Positions 5,454 to 54,444 of a stretch of DNA of 64,000 nt are shown piece after piece; positions within the stretch are counted from its first letter, which is position 1; the number at the start of each line of letters is the position of its first letter. The position numbers and the translations under genes are program-made. The notes under the pieces are model-generated. The model did not search any database and was not told the origin of the DNA. It saw nothing but the letters and a program-made list of their open reading frames with translations. Source of the stretch: Candidatus Methanoperedens sp. (GTDB taxonomy: Archaea > Halobacteriota > Methanosarcinia > Methanosarcinales > Methanoperedenaceae); assembly GCA_012026835.1 (NCBI GenBank), contig VEPN01000003.1, forward strand, positions 1-64,000. Direction: 5' to 3'.

Positions 5454-7496
5454 ATGCCGCAGAAAATCCGCAAAAGGGACGGAAAGATAGTCGATTTTGA
5501 TAAGTCAAAGATAGCAAATGCCGTCTTTAAAGCTTTTATAGCCACAAAGACCAAAGATGGGAAAAGGGGAGAGGATATAGCGAACCAGGTAGTGGAAATT
5601 GTCGATAAGAGAATCACCGCAATTCCGGGAGTTGAAGATATCCAGGATATCGTTGAAGAAGTCCTGATAAAAAATGGGTACGCGGGTGTCGCAAAGGCAT
5701 ATATCCTGTACAGGGAAAAACGGGCACAGATACGGCAAGCCAAGGAATTCATCGGGGTCCGGGACGAATTGAAGTTAAGCGTTAATGCGGTACGCGTACT
5801 TGAGAGGCGCTATCTCCTGAAAGATGAGAAAGGAAACGTGATAGAGACCCCTTTACAGCTTTTCAGGCGTATCGCAAAAGCTGTCGCCCTTGATCCTGAG
5901 TCCGAAGAGGAGTTTCTGGGCATGCTGGTAAACCTTGAATTTCTTCCCAACACCCCGACTCTTATGAACGCAGGTACAGACCTGGGGCAGCTTTCTGCAT
6001 GTTTTGTGATTCCGGTAGAAGATTCACTTGTCAGCATTTTTGATGCTGTGAAAAGCATGGCCCTGATCCAGCAATCGGGCGGAGGTACAGGTTTTACCTT
6101 CACTCATCTGCGGCCCGCAAAGGATATCGTAAGGACCACACACGGGGTTGCATCAGGCCCTGTTTCCTTTATGAGGATATTTGATACAACCACAGACGTA
6201 ATAAAACAGGGGGGCAAACGGCGCGGCGCCAACATGGGAATACTGAGGGCCGACCACCCTGATATAGTTGATTTCATAACCGCGAAAACAAAAGAAGGAT
6301 TCCTGGCAAATTTCAATATTTCCGTGGCAGTGGATGATAAATTTATGAAAGCTGTAAAAGAGGACGGCGATTACGAATTAATAAACCCGCGGAACAGGGA
6401 AGTTGTAAAGAAGGTACGTGCGCGGGAAATATGGAATCTTATAATAACGATGGCGTGGAGGACAGGCGACCCGGGTGTTGTGTTTATCGATGAGATCAAC
6501 AGGCATAACCCGACGCCGCATATCGGGAAAATGGAAAGCACAAACCCATGTGCGGAGCAGCCTTTATTGCCCTATGAATCCTGCAACCTGGGTTCGATAA
6601 ACCTTGCAAAGATTGTCAAAGACGGTTCAATCGACTGGGAAAAACTTGAAAAAACAATAAATATTGCAGTAAAGTTCCTTGATAATGTGATAGATATTAA
6701 CAGGTACCCGCTATCACAGACAGAGGAAATCACAAGGGCGAACAGGAAAATAGGTCTTGGGGTAATGGGTTTTGCCGATATGCTTGTGCAGCTTGGCATC
6801 CCGTATGATTCTGAAAACGCACTTGCAACAGGAGACAGGATAATGGGTTTTATCCAGGAAAAGTCCCATGCTGCATCTGAAAGACTGGCCCGGGAGAGGG
6901 GAGCATTCCCGAATTTCCACGGAAGCATTTATAAAACACCCATACGCAACTCAACCGTCACCACAATTGCGCCTACGGGGACGATCAGTATTATCGCAGG
7001 TTGTTCAAGCGGTATCGAACCTTTGTTTGCGATTTCTTTTGTGAGGAATGTTATGGAAGGGACAAATCTTCTTGAGGTGAACCCGTTTTTTGAGGCAGTG
7101 GCAAGAGAGAGGGGTTTCTACAGCGAGGAACTCATAATGAAGATTGCCAGGACAGGAAGACTTGGGGGCATCGAAGAAGTGCCGGAAGATATCAGGCGCG
7201 TGTTTGTGACAGCTTTTGATATCAGTCCTGAATGGCATGTAAAGATGCAGGCCGTTTTCCAGAAGCATTGCGATAATGCAGTCTCAAAAACAATCAATTT
7301 CCCGAGTGATGTGGATATAATAGATGTTGAGAAGGCATTTATGCTTGCATATGAATTAAAATGTAAGGGAATTACGGTTTACAGGTACGGAAGCAAAACC
7401 CAGCAGGTTTTGTACCTTGGGAACATAACAGAAAAATATGTTTCTGCGGACGATGAATATGCAGGTGGTTGCCCTGCGCCGGTATGCCCTGTTTAA
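5454..7496 (+). CDS. nrdJ: adenosylcobalamin-dependent (class II) ribonucleotide reductase
   Basis: 680 residues. An ATP-cone regulatory domain begins the protein (KIRKRDGKIVDFDKSKIANA), followed by the large-subunit barrel. Motifs seen: SACFVIPVEDSL, the active-site loop NPCAEQPLLPYESCNLGSIN, and the substrate-binding APTGTISIIAGCSSGIEP. A C-terminal cysteine pair (GGCPAPVCPV) probably re-reduces the active site. It converts ribonucleotides to deoxyribonucleotides using a cobalamin radical, independent of oxygen. The G-rich site GGGGG lies before ATG 5454. It stands alone on its strand; the corrinoid-pathway-type gene at 27284 is far away. Confidence 0.93.
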   Translation: MPQKIRKRDGKIVDFDKSKIANAVFKAFIATKTKDGKRGEDIANQVVEIVDKRITAIPGVEDIQDIVEEVLIKNGYAGVAKAYILYREKRAQIRQAKEFIGVRDELKLSVNAVRVLERRYLLKDEKGNVIETPLQLFRRIAKAVALDPESEEEFLGMLVNLEFLPNTPTLMNAGTDLGQLSACFVIPVEDSLVSIFDAVKSMALIQQSGGGTGFTFTHLRPAKDIVRTTHGVASGPVSFMRIFDTTTDVIKQGGKRRGANMGILRADHPDIVDFITAKTKEGFLANFNISVAVDDKFMKAVKEDGDYELINPRNREVVKKVRAREIWNLIITMAWRTGDPGVVFIDEINRHNPTPHIGKMESTNPCAEQPLLPYESCNLGSINLAKIVKDGSIDWEKLEKTINIAVKFLDNVIDINRYPLSQTEEITRANRKIGLGVMGFADMLVQLGIPYDSENALATGDRIMGFIQEKSHAASERLARERGAFPNFHGSIYKTPIRNSTVTTIAPTGTISIIAGCSSGIEPLFAISFVRNVMEGTNLLEVNPFFEAVARERGFYSEELIMKIARTGRLGGIEEVPEDIRRVFVTAFDISPEWHVKMQAVFQKHCDNAVSKTINFPSDVDIIDVEKAFMLAYELKCKGITVYRYGSKTQQVLYLGNITEKYVSADDEYAGGCPAPVCPV

Positions 7497-7559
7497 CACT
7501 GAATTTAAACCTGAAATAGTAAAAAATTATAAGTAGTAGTGTCACCATATAGACATATT

Positions 7560-8454: not shown

Positions 8455-9552
8455 TTATTTTACTTTCTTGCCGCTTGCTACACCTGTTGCATGGCAGTCT
8501 GAGCAAAATTTCGGCTGGTGACAATCGCTGCATACTTTCCCTATTAAAACCTGCGTCTTATGTGTTTTCAACCAGTCGGGCGGGTGTTCACCGGAATGGC
8601 AGGTAGCACAAAGTTTCTCTTTTATTTCAGGATCATGTTTGACCTCTGAATGGCAGTTGTAGCAGGCAATCTTATTATTTGTTACGTGGTTCTTGTGCAC
8701 GAAACTGAAATCATCATATTTCTCAACCCTTTCCCTGATGTTATGACATGAATAACATTTGTTCTTTTGAACAATATCATTTGCACCTACTGAAAAATTC
8801 ACATGGCATGTCTGGCAATCATAACCGCGGTTGATGTGGTTTGAATGATTAAAGTTCGTGTAATTATTATGTGTTTGTTTTGGCGGACCGTGGCATGAAG
8901 GGCAGCCTGATATCGAGGTATTCCCTGGCACGTCCCTGAAATGACAGGTGAAACAGGTTGAAGTTGTAACCACCATATGTCCGACATCTTCCTTGACTAT
9001 ATTCGGATGGCACTGGCTGCACGACGGGTCGGTAACGGACTGATGTTCTTTCATACCTATTACAAGCATGGAGTGGCAGCTTGTGCATGTCAGGCCGATT
9101 CCTCGTTTTGGTTGCAGCAAGTGGTCTTTATGGCTGAAATTGACACCGATATAGCCGATATCAGATGAAAAGATGCGCTTTTCGTGGCAAACAAGACAGT
9201 TTTTATCCATGACTTTTGCATATAATTTCCCGGAATATTCTTCGACTGTCGTCTCGTAGCTGTAGAACTGGGCAAGCCCGTTGATTTTACCTTTTACATG
9301 GCCGACCAGGCCAGGTTCATAGTGACATTCAACACAACGGATATCATTATGGGAGGATGTTGCCCAGGAATCATAATAAGGTCGCATGATATGACAATTC
9401 TTCCCGCAAAAAGCAGGATTTTCTGTTATCTCAAGCGCTTTTTCGGTAACAACTGCCGTCGCTGAAACCAGGACGACCAGCACGATCACAATAGGCAGTT
9501 TATGCCTTGAAATCCAGTTCTTAATAGCCGCTGTAAGTGATATCTTATCCAT
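8455..9552 (-). CDS. NapC/NirT-like 13-heme cytochrome c
   Basis: 365 residues. One N-terminal membrane anchor (about 17-40) leads into a NapC/NrfH-like region whose first site, CGKNCH, is CxxxCH and is followed by the spaced M and H ligands of quinol-oxidising NapC/NirT proteins. I count 12 further CxxCH sites to the C-terminus, giving 13 predicted hemes, far more than the four of canonical NapC. This suggests an electron conduit from membrane quinol to outside acceptors. It lies 12 bp after the hexaheme gene ending at 9565 and presumably works with it. Confidence 0.88.
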   Translation of the reverse strand: MDKISLTAAIKNWISRHKLPIVIVLVVLVSATAVVTEKALEITENPAFCGKNCHIMRPYYDSWATSSHNDIRCVECHYEPGLVGHVKGKINGLAQFYSYETTVEEYSGKLYAKVMDKNCLVCHEKRIFSSDIGYIGVNFSHKDHLLQPKRGIGLTCTSCHSMLVIGMKEHQSVTDPSCSQCHPNIVKEDVGHMVVTTSTCFTCHFRDVPGNTSISGCPSCHGPPKQTHNNYTNFNHSNHINRGYDCQTCHVNFSVGANDIVQKNKCYSCHNIRERVEKYDDFSFVHKNHVTNNKIACYNCHSEVKHDPEIKEKLCATCHSGEHPPDWLKTHKTQVLIGKVCSDCHQPKFCSDCHATGVASGKKVK

Positions 9553-9564
9553 TTATATTCCCTT

Positions 9565-10545
9565 TCATTGTTTTCTTAATAAGTATAATATTGCAAATAT
9601 TCCCAGGATCGAAGCTATCCCAACACCTGGAGTGGAAGGCACAGTGGTTTCAACTCCGGTTACCTTCTTTTCAGCTCTTTTAGCAGAATCAATCCCGTTC
9701 TGTACTTGTTCATCAAAATCTTTCAGATTGAACCCGTGCCATAAAGATGGTATATCATTCTGGACTGCTATGGCTTTATCCAGGTCCACCTGTGCTGAAG
9801 ACACATCTTTTCCCCGAGCTTTTGCCTCAGCAATGGCATCTTTGGCTTTCATTACTTCTGCCTGGAACTCATTAGCCTTCTCAAGGGCAGTTTTTGCATC
9901 TTTCGGAACGCTTGCTGTCGCTATCTGGTCTTTTGCATTATGGCAAACGCTGCACAGGGCAGTAAGCTCGGAAGCCTTGAGCACCTTGAAAGTATGCGGT
10001 TGATGGCATGTTATACAGGACGGCCCGCTGGATGTAGATCTCAATCTCTGGTAATGCATGGTATTCTTGAAATGATCGAGTTCCTCAGAATGGCAGTTTC
10101 CACATGTATCCGGTATATTCTTAAAATAAATGGAACTATTGGGATCAGTGATGTTTTTCATTGGCGCATGAGCTGCTGCTTCAGTTTTTGCAGCCGGGTC
10201 CCCTCCGTGGCAAGCATCGCACGTGACGAAATATTTTGAATGATCCGAATCAGACCACTGCTGGAAATTGTCAGTTGCCGTTTTCCTTATAATATCAGCA
10301 TGGCATTCAAGCTGGCAGGACACGTTGTTTTTTATATGATTCACTCTTATTTCGTTAAGTCGCGTCTGTTCATCTGTGAAAGGAGACAGGGCCTTATGAC
10401 ATTCAATACAGGAGTTATTATTCAGTGAGTCCAGATGCACAGCTCCGGCAGGTGCAATTAATAAAATAAATAAAATATAAGCACATAGATATGATATTTT
10501 CAAATCAGGGCCATGAAAATTCCGTTTTTTGTTTTCTGATATCAT
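9565..10545 (-). CDS. hexaheme cytochrome c with PGF-CTERM-like anchor
   Basis: 326 residues from ATG 10545, chosen because it gives a proper signal peptide (ISYLCAYILFILLIAPAGA); a frame extending to 10641 would bury it. Heme sites in order: CIECH, CQLECH (CxxxCH), CDACH, CGNCH, CITCH, CSVCH. A helical domain follows, with the conserved ending IPSLWHGFNL, then STPGVGIASILGIFAILYLL and a short basic tail, resembling PGF-CTERM archaeosortase signals. It shares this architecture with the products at 52495-53433 and 53494-54444. First gene of a two-cytochrome unit with the 13-heme protein. Confidence 0.85.
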   Translation of the reverse strand: MISENKKRNFHGPDLKISYLCAYILFILLIAPAGAVHLDSLNNNSCIECHKALSPFTDEQTRLNEIRVNHIKNNVSCQLECHADIIRKTATDNFQQWSDSDHSKYFVTCDACHGGDPAAKTEAAAHAPMKNITDPNSSIYFKNIPDTCGNCHSEELDHFKNTMHYQRLRSTSSGPSCITCHQPHTFKVLKASELTALCSVCHNAKDQIATASVPKDAKTALEKANEFQAEVMKAKDAIAEAKARGKDVSSAQVDLDKAIAVQNDIPSLWHGFNLKDFDEQVQNGIDSAKRAEKKVTGVETTVPSTPGVGIASILGIFAILYLLRKQ

Positions 10546-10646
10546 TTTTTCATCTACCGTGTTTTTATATCTGTTAATTTCAAATATGCAGTCATACATG
10601 ATAACTTTGAGTGTCTTTATTCGTTCATCGTAATATAACACTCTGA

Positions 10647-38625: not shown

Positions 38626-39513
38626 TTACTTTCCCATCATCTTCATCCCTAAGAGGCTTGCCTCATACAGAATGACAAAAGGCAGCATTACCATTATCTG
38701 GCTGAACATTGTGGGGTCGGGGGTAACCCATGCCGCAACTATCAACAGTATGATGTAAGCATGTTTCCTGTAATGGGCCAGTGTCTTTCTTGAAGTAATG
38801 CCAAAACGGACCAGTATGGTCATGACAAGCGGCAGTTCGAAAGAAAAACCTAAAATTACCATTGTCATAACAACAAAAGAGATAAACTCATAAAGTGAGT
38901 AATTGGGATTTGCTTCTAAATTTATTATTGTATCCTCAAGTGTATATTTCAGGAAGAACGGCAGCATATAAAAATAAGAATAAGCCGCACCCAGCAAAAA
39001 CAGTATTATGGAAATCAGCACTGCGATAATTATTAAAGACTTATTTACAGATACGGCAGACGGGAGTCTCCCTTTAAATCCGCGATAGGCATAGTAAATG
39101 ACGAGTAAAGATGCAACGATTGCCCCAAACATAAGAGACATCTTGAATTGGATCATCAATCCTTCAAGTGGCGTCAGGGTCACAATTTTTGGTCCCTGCG
39201 AATTCAAATTATGAGATATATTTAATAACTCGGATGATATTTTTGTCAGGTTCTGCGTGATTGCGGAACTGGCAACATCATTTGAAATCAACGACAGGTT
39301 ATGGGATATATCAACTAACTGCCTTGAAGCATTTGTGCCGGATGACAGGTTCAAATCGTTGATCTGGCTGTAATATAAATCATTTTCTATTTTTTTTATT
39401 ACTTCTCCCATATAGGGAAAAGACATTATTGATACTATTCCAAAGACAGCGGCAATATAAATTAGCTTTTTTCTTAACTCAGCAATTATCCGTGAAAAAT
39501 CTTCCAGGCCCAT
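38626..39513 (-). CDS. tatC: Tat translocase subunit TatC with enlarged first external loop
   Basis: 295 residues, about 40 to 50 longer than typical TatC. The six-helix pattern is visible, with TPLEGLMIQFKMSLMFG and FSFELPLVMTILVRFGITSRKTL as family motifs. The extra length lies at about residues 45-110 after helix 1, a serine/asparagine-rich loop with repeated heptad-like NLSLISNDV and ISSELLNISHNL segments. It would recognise twin-arginine signals such as those of the formate dehydrogenase-like and Rieske subunits. No tatA was found nearby. Confidence 0.88.
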   Translation of the reverse strand: MGLEDFSRIIAELRKKLIYIAAVFGIVSIMSFPYMGEVIKKIENDLYYSQINDLNLSSGTNASRQLVDISHNLSLISNDVASSAITQNLTKISSELLNISHNLNSQGPKIVTLTPLEGLMIQFKMSLMFGAIVASLLVIYYAYRGFKGRLPSAVSVNKSLIIIAVLISIILFLLGAAYSYFYMLPFFLKYTLEDTIINLEANPNYSLYEFISFVVMTMVILGFSFELPLVMTILVRFGITSRKTLAHYRKHAYIILLIVAAWVTPDPTMFSQIMVMLPFVILYEASLLGMKMMGK

Positions 39514-50059: not shown

Positions 50060-50242
50060 CTATAATTTATCAATCTCAATAAATAGAGGTAAGATACCTA
50101 TCATCCCCCCAAGGCCAAAAAGAGCAAGGGCAATAAAATAATTGCCCCTGGAAGCATTATCTATGCTCACAGCAAGCAGTATCAGACCTGCAAGCTTGGA
50201 TAGTGCATCTATTGTCCTGTATTTTGATTTTGACAGTTTCAT
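50060..50242 (-). CDS. small two-helix membrane protein of the Rieske/b operon
   Basis: 60 residues from ATG 50242, which overlaps the preceding stop as TGATG; a longer reading to 50386 runs over that gene and is rejected. A basic start (KLSKSKYRTIDALSKL) precedes two helices (AGLILLAVSI, and YFIALALFGLGGMIGILPLF). Such small proteins often act as accessory subunits of cytochrome b complexes. No family recognised. Confidence 0.7.
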   Translation of the reverse strand: MKLSKSKYRTIDALSKLAGLILLAVSIDNASRGNYFIALALFGLGGMIGILPLFIEIDKL

Positions 50243-50700
50243 CAATGGTATACGATACTGTAGTAGGTGAAGTACAATATGCCAAGCAGGGCAATTATCC
50301 CCAGCACAACAGCGATTTTTCTTTTCCTGATATCGGTTGACGGGTTCCTGTCGATGAACGGTACCAGTATCAAAAGACCATACCATAGTACCATAGGCAC
50401 TGTTACACCGATAATCTTAGCCTCTATAGGTCCGATGTTGTACGTCCAGAATTTCAGGAAACCGAAGACATAAAGGAAATACCATTCAGGGTATATCGGG
50501 GAGGGTGTATCGAACGGGTCTGCGGGTTTAAGAAGACCAGCCGGATATACAGAAGCCAGTAATATGAGGCTTCCTGCGACAAGGCACATCACAACGACTT
50601 CCCTTAGCAGGAAATGAGGGAAAAACGGAAGACCACGGATGCGTACAGGTTCATGTTCATGTTCTTCGGTTCCGTGCAGTTCTTTATTTGTCATTGCCAT
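50242..50700 (-). CDS. cytochrome b C-terminal subunit (subunit IV-like)
   Basis: 152 residues with about three membrane helices. The PSPIYPEWYFLYVFGFLKFW segment carries the PEWY motif of the quinol oxidation site. The pairing with a separate N-terminal cytochrome b (one base upstream) is the split arrangement of b6f-type and Firmicutes complexes. GGAGG precedes ATG 50700. Part of a quinol-oxidising complex with the Rieske protein. Confidence 0.9.
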   Translation of the reverse strand: MAMTNKELHGTEEHEHEPVRIRGLPFFPHFLLREVVVMCLVAGSLILLASVYPAGLLKPADPFDTPSPIYPEWYFLYVFGFLKFWTYNIGPIEAKIIGVTVPMVLWYGLLILVPFIDRNPSTDIRKRKIAVVLGIIALLGILYFTYYSIVYH

Positions 50701-50701
50701 A

Positions 50702-51364
50702 TTAAAGCCTCCCTGAAATCCCCTGTATCCTGACCATCAGGAAATGCAGCAGCAGCAATGTAATTATCGCTGCCGGAAGTATCAATACGTGGATAGCATA
50801 GAAACGCGTCAGGGTTTCGGCTCCAAGGTCGTTCCCCCCTATCAGTATAAGCGATATGTACTGCCCCATGACGGGTATCGAGCCCGCTATGCCTGTTCCT
50901 ATCTTTGTTGCCCAGTAAGCAAGCTGGTCCCACGGGAGAAGATAACCTGAGAAACCAAAGGTAGTGGTCGTCAAAAACAGAAACACGCCAACTACCCAGT
51001 TCAGTTCGCGGGGTCTCTTGTACGCACCCATGAAATAAACCCTTATCATATGGAGCATTACAGCCGCTATCATGGTATTTGCTGCCCAGTGATGCACGCT
51101 CCTTATAAGGCTTCCCATGGGAACTTCAAGCATTATGCGTTCGACGCTCTTATACGCTTCAGCCGGGGTTGGTTTGTAGTACATTGCCAGGAATATCCCT
51201 GTGGTGGCAAGGATTAAAAAACACAGGAATGCAGTTCCGCCAAGACAGTATAACGGATTTGAAACCGCGTATTCAGGCGCAGGATGCTTGACTATCGGGG
51301 GAAGCAGTTCCCTTAATTTGAACCTGTCATCAAGCCATTTATAGATTGTTTTGCTCAGGGTCAT
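50702..51364 (-). CDS. cytochrome b N-terminal subunit (b6-like)
   Basis: 220 residues from ATG 51364 (GAGG upstream); a start at 51388 lies inside the Rieske gene. Four helices with two heme b histidine pairs, in RSVHHWAANTMIAAVMLHMI and FYAIHVLILPAAIITLLLLH. GYLLPWDQLAYW matches the family. It carries electrons across the membrane in a Q-cycle. Confidence 0.94.
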   Translation of the reverse strand: MTLSKTIYKWLDDRFKLRELLPPIVKHPAPEYAVSNPLYCLGGTAFLCFLILATTGIFLAMYYKPTPAEAYKSVERIMLEVPMGSLIRSVHHWAANTMIAAVMLHMIRVYFMGAYKRPRELNWVVGVFLFLTTTTFGFSGYLLPWDQLAYWATKIGTGIAGSIPVMGQYISLILIGGNDLGAETLTRFYAIHVLILPAAIITLLLLHFLMVRIQGISGRL

Positions 51365-51371
51365 ATTAACC

Positions 51372-51875
51372 TCACGCCGCCCCTGCATAGAACGATATGG
51401 ATTTCACATAGTCCGGGTCCTTCCATTTGAGCGCATAAACATCCCCATCTTTGACGATGATATCAATTGCAGGCAAAGGCGATGGCGGAGGCCCTGAAAT
51501 TACAGCGCCTGTATTCGGATCGAATTTTCCAAGGTGACAGGGGCAGAACAGGATATTCTCATCCGGTTTCCAATAAGCCACACAGCCAAGATGCGTGCAT
51601 ACCGCCCCAAAGGCCCGGAAACCGGCAGGCGTCTTTAGAAGAACTGCCGCTTTCCCATTGAACATGAATTTCTTTGCATCCCCGGTCGCTACCTCATCTG
51701 CCGAAGCTATTTTTACTTCACTCGATGAGCTCTTATCTGCCGATGCAGGCCACAGGTATTTTAATATGGTCGCCAGCACCCCTCCTGCAAAAAAAACCGC
51801 CACAAGGCCTATCAGGACTTCAGTGAGCTTTCTTCTCGTGATTGTAAGAGTGATTTTATCATCCACGATCCTCAC
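51372..51875 (-). CDS. Rieske iron-sulfur protein
   Basis: 167 residues. The [2Fe-2S] ligands are in CTHLGCVAYWK and CPCHLGKFD, with the usual Cys pair for a disulfide. A twin-arginine-like start (TITRRKLTEVLIGLVAVFFAG) suggests Tat export and an N-terminal anchor. The start is GTG 51875, overlapping the previous stop; a GTG at 51866 is possible. It takes electrons from quinol bound to cytochrome b and hands them to a c-type cytochrome. Confidence 0.93.
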   Translation of the reverse strand: MRIVDDKITLTITRRKLTEVLIGLVAVFFAGGVLATILKYLWPASADKSSSSEVKIASADEVATGDAKKFMFNGKAAVLLKTPAGFRAFGAVCTHLGCVAYWKPDENILFCPCHLGKFDPNTGAVISGPPPSPLPAIDIIVKDGDVYALKWKDPDYVKSISFYAGAA

Positions 51876-52147
51876 CCCACCGTTGTAACATATTCATCCT
51901 TCAACAGTCCTTTCACATAGAGATATATTATTGCGGCCAGGTCAAACAGCAGAAATGCCAATAACTTCCCGATATCTTCTATGAACTGTCTTGAAGATGC
52001 CATAGAAGGTTCACTGGAAATGATTTTCAAGAAGATAATTCCGGTCATTCCGGCTGCTGCAAGTGATAACAGGATTATTAAAGCGAAGGAAACCTGGGCC
52101 CAGAAGCCTTCTTTTTCAGGCCCGTATTCAATTTTCTCAATATGCAT
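51872..52147 (-). CDS. small membrane protein of the Rieske/b operon
   Basis: 91 residues with two clear membrane helices (about 19-41 and 62-80) and a short charged start (HIEKIEYGPEKEGFW). It overlaps the Rieske start by four bases and follows the monoheme gene by 9 bp, so it is translationally coupled to the complex. No family recognised; a structural or assembly subunit is likely by position. Confidence 0.75.
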   Translation of the reverse strand: MHIEKIEYGPEKEGFWAQVSFALIILLSLAAAGMTGIIFLKIISSEPSMASSRQFIEDIGKLLAFLLFDLAAIIYLYVKGLLKDEYVTTVG

Positions 52148-52156
52148 AATTCCACC

Positions 52157-52495
52157 TCACAACCTGATTGCATAAATCACAACAAGCATAATCAAAATCG
52201 TGGCAAGTGCCCTGATGCCGACATCCCATGTGTTCATATGAACGCCTATCTCAATTTCTTTTGTCGGGACTGGCGTGGGCGTCACTTTGGGAGATGGGAC
52301 ATAACCTTCAAACGAATGATTATGGCTTCCATAATACACTCCTATCTCGTTAAGCTGCGGAGGCCCATCCCTAGTATGGCAATACGGGCAGTTGCGGCTT
52401 TCCCTGACTGCGTATTCAGGCCTTGCAGATGTTAAAATCGGTGTATATAACAGAAGTGTTATTACAAGAAGCAAAAAGACCATATTTTTACTCAT
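52157..52495 (-). CDS. membrane-anchored monoheme c-type cytochrome
   Basis: 112 residues: signal peptide (FLLLVITLLLYTPILTSA), one heme site CPYCH near 36-40, a proline-rich linker (SPKVTPTPVPTKE) and a C-terminal helix (LATILIMLVVIYAI). Conserved surroundings (RNCPYCHTRDGPPQLNEIG) resemble heme sites of quinone-linked small cytochromes. It overlaps the hexaheme gene by one base. Its position before Rieske suggests it is the first electron acceptor. Confidence 0.82.
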   Translation of the reverse strand: MSKNMVFLLLVITLLLYTPILTSARPEYAVRESRNCPYCHTRDGPPQLNEIGVYYGSHNHSFEGYVPSPKVTPTPVPTKEIEIGVHMNTWDVGIRALATILIMLVVIYAIRL

Positions 52496-53433
52496 TATTT
52501 AACACCTCTTTGCCTCAATAAGAGGAATATGGCGAAGATTCCCATGATTGCAAATATCGCACCGAATCCCGGAGTCGAAGGTTTTGCCACAGGCATGCCT
52601 GAATCTTCCTGCGCCTTCTTTGCCGCATTGATGCCATCGCTGGTTACTGTCTCAAATGACGGCAGATCAAAAGCATGCCATAGAACCGGAAGGCTATCTC
52701 TTATCGATATTGCTCTTTCAAGGTCTTTTTGCGCAACAGATACATCTCTCCCTTTATCTTTGGCCTGCCTGATGGCACTATCGGCCAGTTTTATCTCGTT
52801 CTTCAGTTTGTCGGCATTTTCAAGCGCTGAAATTGCCTTATCTGGTACATCAGGGGCGATTTTCATATCCAGATTATGGCACTGGCTGCACAGGTCATTG
52901 AACTCGCTGACATTTAAAACCTTGAATTCATGGGGCGTATGGCAGGTATCGCATGTGGGGGCCTGTTTGAGCGCTTTTAACATCTGGTAATGTTTGGAAT
53001 CCTTGAACTCGTTCAATTCTTTTGTATGGCATTTTCCACAGGTTTCAGGCACATTCCTGAAAAAAACAGTGCTGTTTGTTTCAGATTCCCTCGCGACCCC
53101 GATATGCGCTTTCTCTTTTATGTCCGCTGCCGGGTCGCCTCCATGACATTTTTCGCATGTGACATTGAACATGGAATGTTTGGACCTTGTCCACTGTTCA
53201 TAATTGCTCTTTGCGATCTTGTTGATTGTGCTTGCGTGGCATTCCAGAGAGCACGGCACATTAACGTTGCTTGAGAGATGTTTAAGCCTTATCTTGTTAA
53301 ACTCTTGCTCGGTTTCATTAAAAGCCGTAAGTTTTTCATGGCAATCCAGGCATGAATTTTCTGCCAGTGCTGCAGGTATAATGAAAATGGCTATCGATAA
53401 TATCATAAGAACAAATAGGAATCCTGGTCTCAT
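52495..53433 (-). CDS. hexaheme cytochrome c with PGF-CTERM-like anchor
   Basis: 312 residues from ATG 53433 (GGAGG upstream), giving a clean signal peptide (FVLMILSIAIFIIPAALA). Heme sites: CLDCH, CSLECH (CxxxCH), CEKCH, CGKCH, CDTCH and CSQCH. A helical domain follows to LPVLWHAFDL, then STPGFGAIFAIMGIFAIFLL and a basic end, the best match in the window to a PGF-CTERM archaeosortase signal. Paralogous to the products at 9565 and 53494. Confidence 0.88.
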   Translation of the reverse strand: MRPGFLFVLMILSIAIFIIPAALAENSCLDCHEKLTAFNETEQEFNKIRLKHLSSNVNVPCSLECHASTINKIAKSNYEQWTRSKHSMFNVTCEKCHGGDPAADIKEKAHIGVARESETNSTVFFRNVPETCGKCHTKELNEFKDSKHYQMLKALKQAPTCDTCHTPHEFKVLNVSEFNDLCSQCHNLDMKIAPDVPDKAISALENADKLKNEIKLADSAIRQAKDKGRDVSVAQKDLERAISIRDSLPVLWHAFDLPSFETVTSDGINAAKKAQEDSGMPVAKPSTPGFGAIFAIMGIFAIFLLLRQRGVK

Positions 53434-53493
53434 ACTTTCACTTCCTCCAGCAAATAGATTAATCCTGTATAGCATATAAGTTCCCTCTGTTTT

Positions 53494-54444
53494 TTAATGC
53501 CTTTTCAACAAATATGCTACAAACAGGCCCGATACAAGGAGTAACACTTCGAACCCTGAAGTTTTAGGCGGCGGCGCGGTTGCAGTTGCATTCTCCGTCG
53601 GTGTTATTTCGGCCTTCCTGGCATCTGCAATGCCTTGCTGGACTTCGGTTTCGAAATAACTCAAATTAAACCTGTGCCAGACAGAGGGAATATGTTTTAA
53701 TATCGCCCTTGAAGATTCCAGGCTCGCTTCAGCCTCAGTTACATCCTTTCCGGATGCTTTTGCAGAAATAACAGCGCTTCTTGCTTTTGAAATCTCAACC
53801 TGCAATTCACGTACTGAGGATAATGCAGCCTCTGCTCTTTTCGGGACTGAAGGATCGATGCCTGTTATGCGGTTATGGCAGTTACTGCAGAAATCCTCAA
53901 TTTCAGAAGCGGTCAATACCCGCACGCTGTGTGCCTGGTGGCATGTGATACATGCAGGCGCAGGTCCTTCTCCGCCAGCTTCCAGTTTTGTGAAATGCTT
54001 TGAGCTCTTGAATTCCTCAAGTTCTGGTTCATGGCATTGTCCACAGGACTCAGGCGTATTGGTCCGGGCTATGCTTTTATTTGAAAGACCCTTATGAGCC
54101 TCATTTTTCAAAGTTGCCATGGGGTCACCGCCATGACATTTTTCGCATGTCACGTTAAATAGGGCATGTGTTGAAACTGACCACATGGCATAAGTGCTGG
54201 CCGTGGTTTTGTTCAGTTTATCCTCATGACAGACAATAGAACAGGAAATACCGCTTTCAAGATGTTTGATGCGTATATCGACAAATTGCCTGGTCTCTGA
54301 TGTAAACAGCAACTTCCTGTGGCAGTCAGCACAAGAATTATTGAGTTGTTGGGTAGCAGGTGCAACTGCGGGTTGTACTAATAAAAATAATATAGATACA
54401 AAAGCTATTCCGAGAACTATTCCTGAAACGTTTTTGAAATGCAT
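53494..54444 (-). CDS. hexaheme cytochrome c, paralogue
   Basis: 316 residues with AGGAG before ATG 54444 and a signal peptide to about residue 30. Heme sites: CADCH, CSIVCH (CxxxCH), CEKCH, CGQCH, CITCH and CSNCH, at spacings like the two paralogues. The helical domain ends IPSVWHRFNL, and the tail is KTSGFEVLLLVSGLFVAYLL plus KRH, a degenerate PGF-CTERM-like end (SGF instead of PGF). First gene of the eight-gene Rieske/b operon. Confidence 0.87.
   Translation of the reverse strand: MHFKNVSGIVLGIAFVSILFLLVQPAVAPATQQLNNSCADCHRKLLFTSETRQFVDIRIKHLESGISCSIVCHEDKLNKTTASTYAMWSVSTHALFNVTCEKCHGGDPMATLKNEAHKGLSNKSIARTNTPESCGQCHEPELEEFKSSKHFTKLEAGGEGPAPACITCHQAHSVRVLTASEIEDFCSNCHNRITGIDPSVPKRAEAALSSVRELQVEISKARSAVISAKASGKDVTEAEASLESSRAILKHIPSVWHRFNLSYFETEVQQGIADARKAEITPTENATATAPPPKTSGFEVLLLVSGLFVAYLLKRH

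Follow-up and report, generated by a model that had tools for sequence, protein, structure and literature searches.

Gene clusters that combine a Rieske protein and a cytochrome b with multiheme c-type cytochromes have previously been described in Candidatus Methanoperedens and in Archaeoglobi. In Methanoperedens, Arshad et al. 2015 (PMC4683180) listed MPEBLZ_00816-00823 as two 'pentaheme' cytochromes, a cytochrome c, the Rieske/cytochrome b genes and two hypotheticals; the cluster was kept in two strains, and expression was similar across all eight genes. Leu et al. 2020 (PMC7327174) reported a family-wide conserved cluster encoding a 'noncanonical bc1/b6f' complex together with two hypotheticals and two 6-heme cytochromes, counting it among five menaquinone:cytochrome c oxidoreductase clusters, and Boyd et al. 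2019 (PMC6474303) described a bc1-like complex in the deep-subseafloor Archaeoglobi genome of Candidatus Polytropus marinifundus. The identical eight-gene set is found in the 64,000-nucleotide stretch of a Candidatus Methanoperedens sp. contig analysed here (the window), which matches both published clusters in gene content and order and differs only in species; the eight proteins of strain BLZ2 are 65-88% identical to those of the window. The operon itself is thus already known, and the novelty implied by a preliminary description of this DNA does not stand, as all eight genes, including the two hypotheticals, appear in both earlier reports. That work left open what the two small proteins, here denoted p91 and p60, are and do. 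New here is that, judged by sequence comparison, both are conserved and p91 has distant haloarchaeal relatives.

Considering gene content, gene order, cofactor motifs and homology together, the operon very likely encodes a b6f-type Q-cycle menaquinol:cytochrome c oxidoreductase, in which electrons would leave via a monoheme protein to lipid-anchored hexaheme cytochromes and p91 and p60 would be small subunits. Menaquinol electrons would then probably leave by this complex during methane oxidation that depends on nitrate or metals.

The operon and its distribution

Eight co-directional open reading frames (ORFs) occupy window positions 50060-54444 on the minus strand, in the transcription order H1, H2 (the two hexahemes), monoheme protein, p91, Rieske protein, cytochrome b, subunit IV and p60. 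Adjacent ORFs overlap by 1-17 bp or are separated by 1-18 bp, and all eight lie where the preliminary description had placed its tightly spaced, single-strand operon. Its account of H1 and H2 as paralogous hexahemes was likewise upheld, each carrying five CXXCH motifs and one CXXXCH motif and the two being 43% identical. The large cytochromes termed 'pentaheme' by Arshad et al. also become hexahemes once the conserved CXXXCH is counted, in agreement with Leu et al.

Of 34 Methanoperedenaceae genomes, 28 (that of the window among them) have a cytochrome b of this type, which within the order is confined to that family (28/186 genomes, 2/27 genera), consistent with the earlier remark that a bc-type complex is rare in methane-cycling archaea. 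Synteny was followed in the surroundings of cytochrome b in the 27 other Methanoperedenaceae genomes. In all 27 loci the order p91, Rieske protein, cytochrome b, subunit IV and p60 is retained, so that the loss of the small ORFs from syntenic loci, which the preliminary description had named as the outcome that would count against it, was not encountered. The cytochrome genes (H1, H2 and monoheme) are present wherever the contig extends far enough; in one locus (L038) the contig begins within H2, leaving H1 out of view, and in another (L039) p60 is shortened. Among relatives, identity to the window protein is 58-82% for p91 and 49-76% for p60, and in seven close pairs the ratio of nonsynonymous to synonymous substitution rates (dN/dS) was 0.03-0.33 for p91 and 0.10-0.40 for p60, values indicating that both genes are under purifying selection. 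Because 27 relatives keep the gene order and the small-gene dN/dS is low, the eight-gene arrangement is not due to chance. The genome distribution of p91 equals that of cytochrome b, with the addition of one genome (G014) where a single contig carries H1, H2 and p91 and no cytochrome b was detected. At one locus (L047:4956-5123, genome G018) the monoheme match is restricted to residues 5-53, reflecting a frameshift, decay or an assembly error.

Outside the family, the same cytochrome b was found in only two of 59 genomes searched in the Archaeoglobi class, the metagenome-assembled genomes (MAGs) JdFR-42 and JdFR-37; one further, distinct cytochrome b type occurs in a genome of that class with 9% contamination. 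The order in JdFR-42 is hexaheme, diheme cytochrome, p91, Rieske, cytochrome b, subunit IV and p60, thus with one hexaheme in the operon, and with TtrB- and NrfD-like genes downstream. JdFR-37 has the same order, with two hexahemes, but the operon is broken between two contigs and Rieske falls into the gap. The Archaeoglobi small proteins were matched by hhalign with probabilities of 97 (p91) and 93 (p60). We infer that the published bc1-like cluster of Candidatus Polytropus marinifundus (PMC6474303) is this locus.

Cofactor motifs and the putative electron path

The nearest relative of the cytochrome b in the PDB is cytochrome b6 (E 3e-72), followed by bc1-type cytochrome b (E 8e-42). Its bis-histidine sites (His99/113 and His200/215, spacings 14 and 15) and the heme c_i cysteine in YCLGG are invariant among orthologues, as is the PEWY motif of subunit IV. 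The protein thereby resembles the cytochrome b6f complex (7r0w, 2zt9) in cytochrome b sequence, heme c_i cysteine, histidine spacing and separate subunit IV, but the operon lacks cytochrome f and has the 112-residue monoheme protein in its place. A search for papers on archaeal cytochrome b with heme c_i returned nothing useful. In the Rieske protein the ligand boxes CTHLGC and CPCH are invariant (15 rows), the potential-raising serine is replaced by glycine in all rows, and the corresponding tyrosine is mostly phenylalanine. Such serine and tyrosine changes lower the potential of the yeast Rieske protein by about 130 and 65 mV, respectively (PMC12954380), and a Rieske protein lacking the potential-raising serine therefore fits menaquinone. 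The window's genome also encodes two MqnA-family proteins, c-cytochrome assembly proteins and two TatC proteins, one of the latter at window 38680-39489 (-).

Further Rieske and cytochrome b genes were noted. The window's own genome holds a second Rieske gene (L063:5890-7207, contig 46), 80-81% identical and without a cytochrome b, which overlaps a TtrB-like 4Fe-4S gene; as described above, TtrB- and NrfD-like genes also lie downstream of the JdFR-42 operon. In genome G009 a different, fused cytochrome b (L062:4096-5139), about 36-38% identical, occurs as well, with isoleucine at the heme c_i position.

In the mechanism we favour, cytochrome b, subunit IV and the Rieske protein would form a Q-cycle core with menaquinol oxidation at its outer (PEWY) site. 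Of the two electrons, one would pass to the low-potential Rieske cluster; the other would travel via the hemes b and a heme c_i bound covalently to the protein and reach a quinone at the inner site, a cycle expected to translocate protons. From the Rieske domain the electron would proceed to the short, membrane-anchored monoheme protein and then to H1 and H2, the bis-histidine hexahemes at the membrane's outer side, before moving on to nitrate reductase or other multiheme cytochromes. p91 would sit as a two-helix hairpin subunit beside Rieske/cytochrome b, and p60 beside subunit IV. It is very improbable that the complex instead operates in reverse or in a bifurcating mode, with hexaheme electrons reducing the quinone pool. 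Rieske/cytochrome b complexes of altered energetics have been proposed in anammox bacteria (PMC12954380), but no NAD(P)H- or flavin-binding subunit was found in the operon with Pfam, the Rieske features match ordinary menaquinol oxidation, and Methanoperedens requires an exit for menaquinol electrons.

The hexaheme alignment (56 sequences) shows six heme motifs and six additional conserved histidines, one per heme. The tail of H2 matches PF18204 (PGF-CTERM; E=7.4e-7), PGF is present in the tails of 51 of the 56 sequences, H1 of the window reads SGF at this position, and the genome holds three archaeosortase A-type (ArtA) genes. Archaeosortase thus probably exchanges the tails for a lipid anchor at the outer face of the membrane. 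Such a location makes the 'complete path to surface cytochromes' of the preliminary description too strong, as no product of the operon spans the S-layer; the existence of several further hexaheme paralogues per genome, outside the operon, weakens it further. The hexaheme tree did not separate a duplication of H1 and H2 before the divergence from Archaeoglobi from one after it. Two related observations concern this family. In genome G013, H1 (L061, 5789-6649 (-)) has undergone a natural deletion of the CXXXCH heme site together with its partner histidine, resulting in a pentaheme. In the window, a further hexaheme paralogue, 46% identical to H2, is followed by a 365-residue NapC/NrfH-like cytochrome that carries about 13 heme motifs (8455-10641 (-)), a pair that possibly constitutes another quinol-to-cytochrome route.

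Alignment places the monoheme protein over the first heme domain and the C-terminal anchor of the Archaeoglobi diheme, a larger protein with a CBB3-type domain. A scan for this family in named genomes returned only Methanoperedenaceae-type loci, JdFR-42 and JdFR-37. The protein is the probable functional stand-in for cytochrome c1/f.

Several points weigh against the proposed electron path. p91 and p60 could be assembly factors, as discussed below. The hexahemes, belonging to a multi-member paralogous family, need not be dedicated to this complex, and a structure model of H2 was too uncertain for use, the heme domain being poorly modelled (predicted local distance difference test, pLDDT, 66). 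A search of the monoheme protein against the PDB gave nothing convincing and no solved relative, and its axial ligand is a guess, taken from an invariant HM pair near the anchor.

The small membrane proteins p91 and p60

p91 and p60 are probably real parts of the complex because they are conserved, p91 also having apparent distant relatives in halophilic archaea. The preliminary description had put both forward as possible subunits; their conservation and synteny are borne out, while their subunit status is something we infer. It is possible, if rather unlikely, that they are instead assembly or insertion factors, serving Rieske or heme insertion around an otherwise unchanged core. Both are tiny, lack a cofactor motif and lie at tight or overlapping gene junctions, and DUF7318, the haloarchaeal family related to p91, is equally uncharacterised. 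Conversely, their near-universal 1:1 presence with the structural genes speaks for subunits, and bc complexes generally retain small integral subunits, although neither argument is decisive.

When the p91 profile was run against 393 genomes of the phylum, matches were obtained in two Archaeoglobi genomes and one haloarchaeal genus, and the haloarchaeal matches are DUF7318 proteins (E 7e-71). Comparison of the p91 profile with a haloarchaeal DUF7318 protein by hhalign gave a probability of 91.5. DUF7318 (PF24002) was matched by 21 of 23 p91-family members at E<=10, with a best E of 1.2e-5; the window p91 itself scored 18.2 bits, under the Pfam gathering cut-off of 27. In all 30 haloarchaeal loci checked, DUF7318 lies <=1.5 kb from petB on the same strand, directly upstream of it in 17 and about one gene off in 13. 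As p91 matches DUF7318 and DUF7318 lies near petB, p91 is probably related to a family that archaea conserve in the vicinity of cytochrome b. No paper naming DUF7318 was retrieved by a full-text literature search. The family link makes the role of p91 testable in the genetically tractable Haloferax volcanii.

The haloarchaeal petB/petD cluster likewise has a split, b6-like cytochrome b with DUF7318 nearby, but halocyanin takes the place of the c-cytochromes of the window (PMC8305020). The haloarchaeal cytochrome b examined reads YSLGS and lacks the heme c_i cysteine, where the window has YCLGG, and in Haloferax the Rieske gene is located elsewhere than petB/petD, whereas the window Rieske gene is inside the operon. 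Haloarchaeal gene order was considered as proof of p91-Rieske binding and dropped, petA (HVO_2620) being apart from petB (HVO_0842) in a published list. Comparison of p60 with haloarchaeal DUF7315, which occupies a similar place after petD, revealed no similarity. DUF7321, DUF7315 and DUF7313 (L088:2720-3202 (-), 7111-7539 and 8779-9228), likewise uncharacterised, cluster around haloarchaeal petB/petD.

The predicted structure of p91 (pLDDT 91) is a pair of long helices flanked at either end by short strands. In a Foldseek search of 350,542 PDB chains, the five best matches were QcrA-type Rieske chains from actinobacterial bcc-aa3 supercomplexes. In QcrA, two transmembrane helices (TMs) precede an arginine pair (RR), after which come TM3 and the Rieske domain (PMC5449189), and the predicted p91 hairpin followed by the RR-TM-Rieske protein gives a like layout, but as separate genes. 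A tentative reading is thus that p91 is the detached TM1-TM2 of an actinobacterial-type QcrA, a Sec-inserted hairpin that would hold the single Tat-inserted Rieske helix. The confident model and the identity of its five best matches point in this direction, as does the overlap of the two-TM p91 gene with a Rieske gene whose product starts with a single TM preceded by an invariant RR pair. Still, the Foldseek scores are weak (E about 0.3-0.6, TMq 0.66-0.71), the five matches belong to one homologous family and are in effect a single hit, and the matched QcrA region was not displayed. Chance matches are easy for a two-helix hairpin, and a p91 profile search of PDB sequences yielded no QcrA and nothing convincing. 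Equally speculative is the broader idea that p91/DUF7318 may be an ancient, unrecognised integral subunit of the Methanoperedens, some Archaeoglobi and the haloarchaeal complexes, acting as a separate Rieske anchor in the manner of a split QcrA hairpin.

Coordinates and annotation of the eight ORFs

Table 1. ORFs of the operon in order of transcription, with window coordinates.
Feature	Coordinates	Strand	Remarks
H1, hexaheme c-type cytochrome, 316 aa	53494..54444	-	Signal peptide; C-terminal anchor; PGF-CTERM-like tail with P replaced by S
H2, hexaheme c-type cytochrome paralogue, 326 aa	52495..53475	-	PGF-CTERM (archaeosortase) tail
Monoheme c-type cytochrome, 112 aa	52157..52495	-	C-terminal TM; without the CBB3-type domain of the Archaeoglobi diheme relative
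p91, 91 aa, predicted two-TM hairpin	51872..52147	-	Probable distant relative of haloarchaeal DUF7318; 4-bp overlap with Rieske gene
Rieske [2Fe-2S] protein, 167 aa, GTG start	51372..51875	-	Invariant RR pair, then one TM; CTHLGC...CPCHLGKF, without the Ser and with Phe for Tyr
Cytochrome b, b6 type, 228 aa	50702..51388	-	Heme c_i cysteine in YCLGG; likely true start 51364
Subunit IV (PetD type), 152 aa	50242..50700	-	PEWY motif
p60, small membrane protein, 60 aa	50060..50242	-	Orthologues in Methanoperedenaceae and two Archaeoglobi MAGs

Pfam searches of the eight proteins returned Rieske (E 1e-11), Cytochrome_B and Cytochrom_B_C, with a weak DUF7318 match for p91 and no family for the monoheme protein or p60. 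The 17-bp overlap between the Rieske and cytochrome b genes is probably a start-codon artefact, because most cytochrome b orthologues begin at Met9 (51364), a start with which the overlap disappears.

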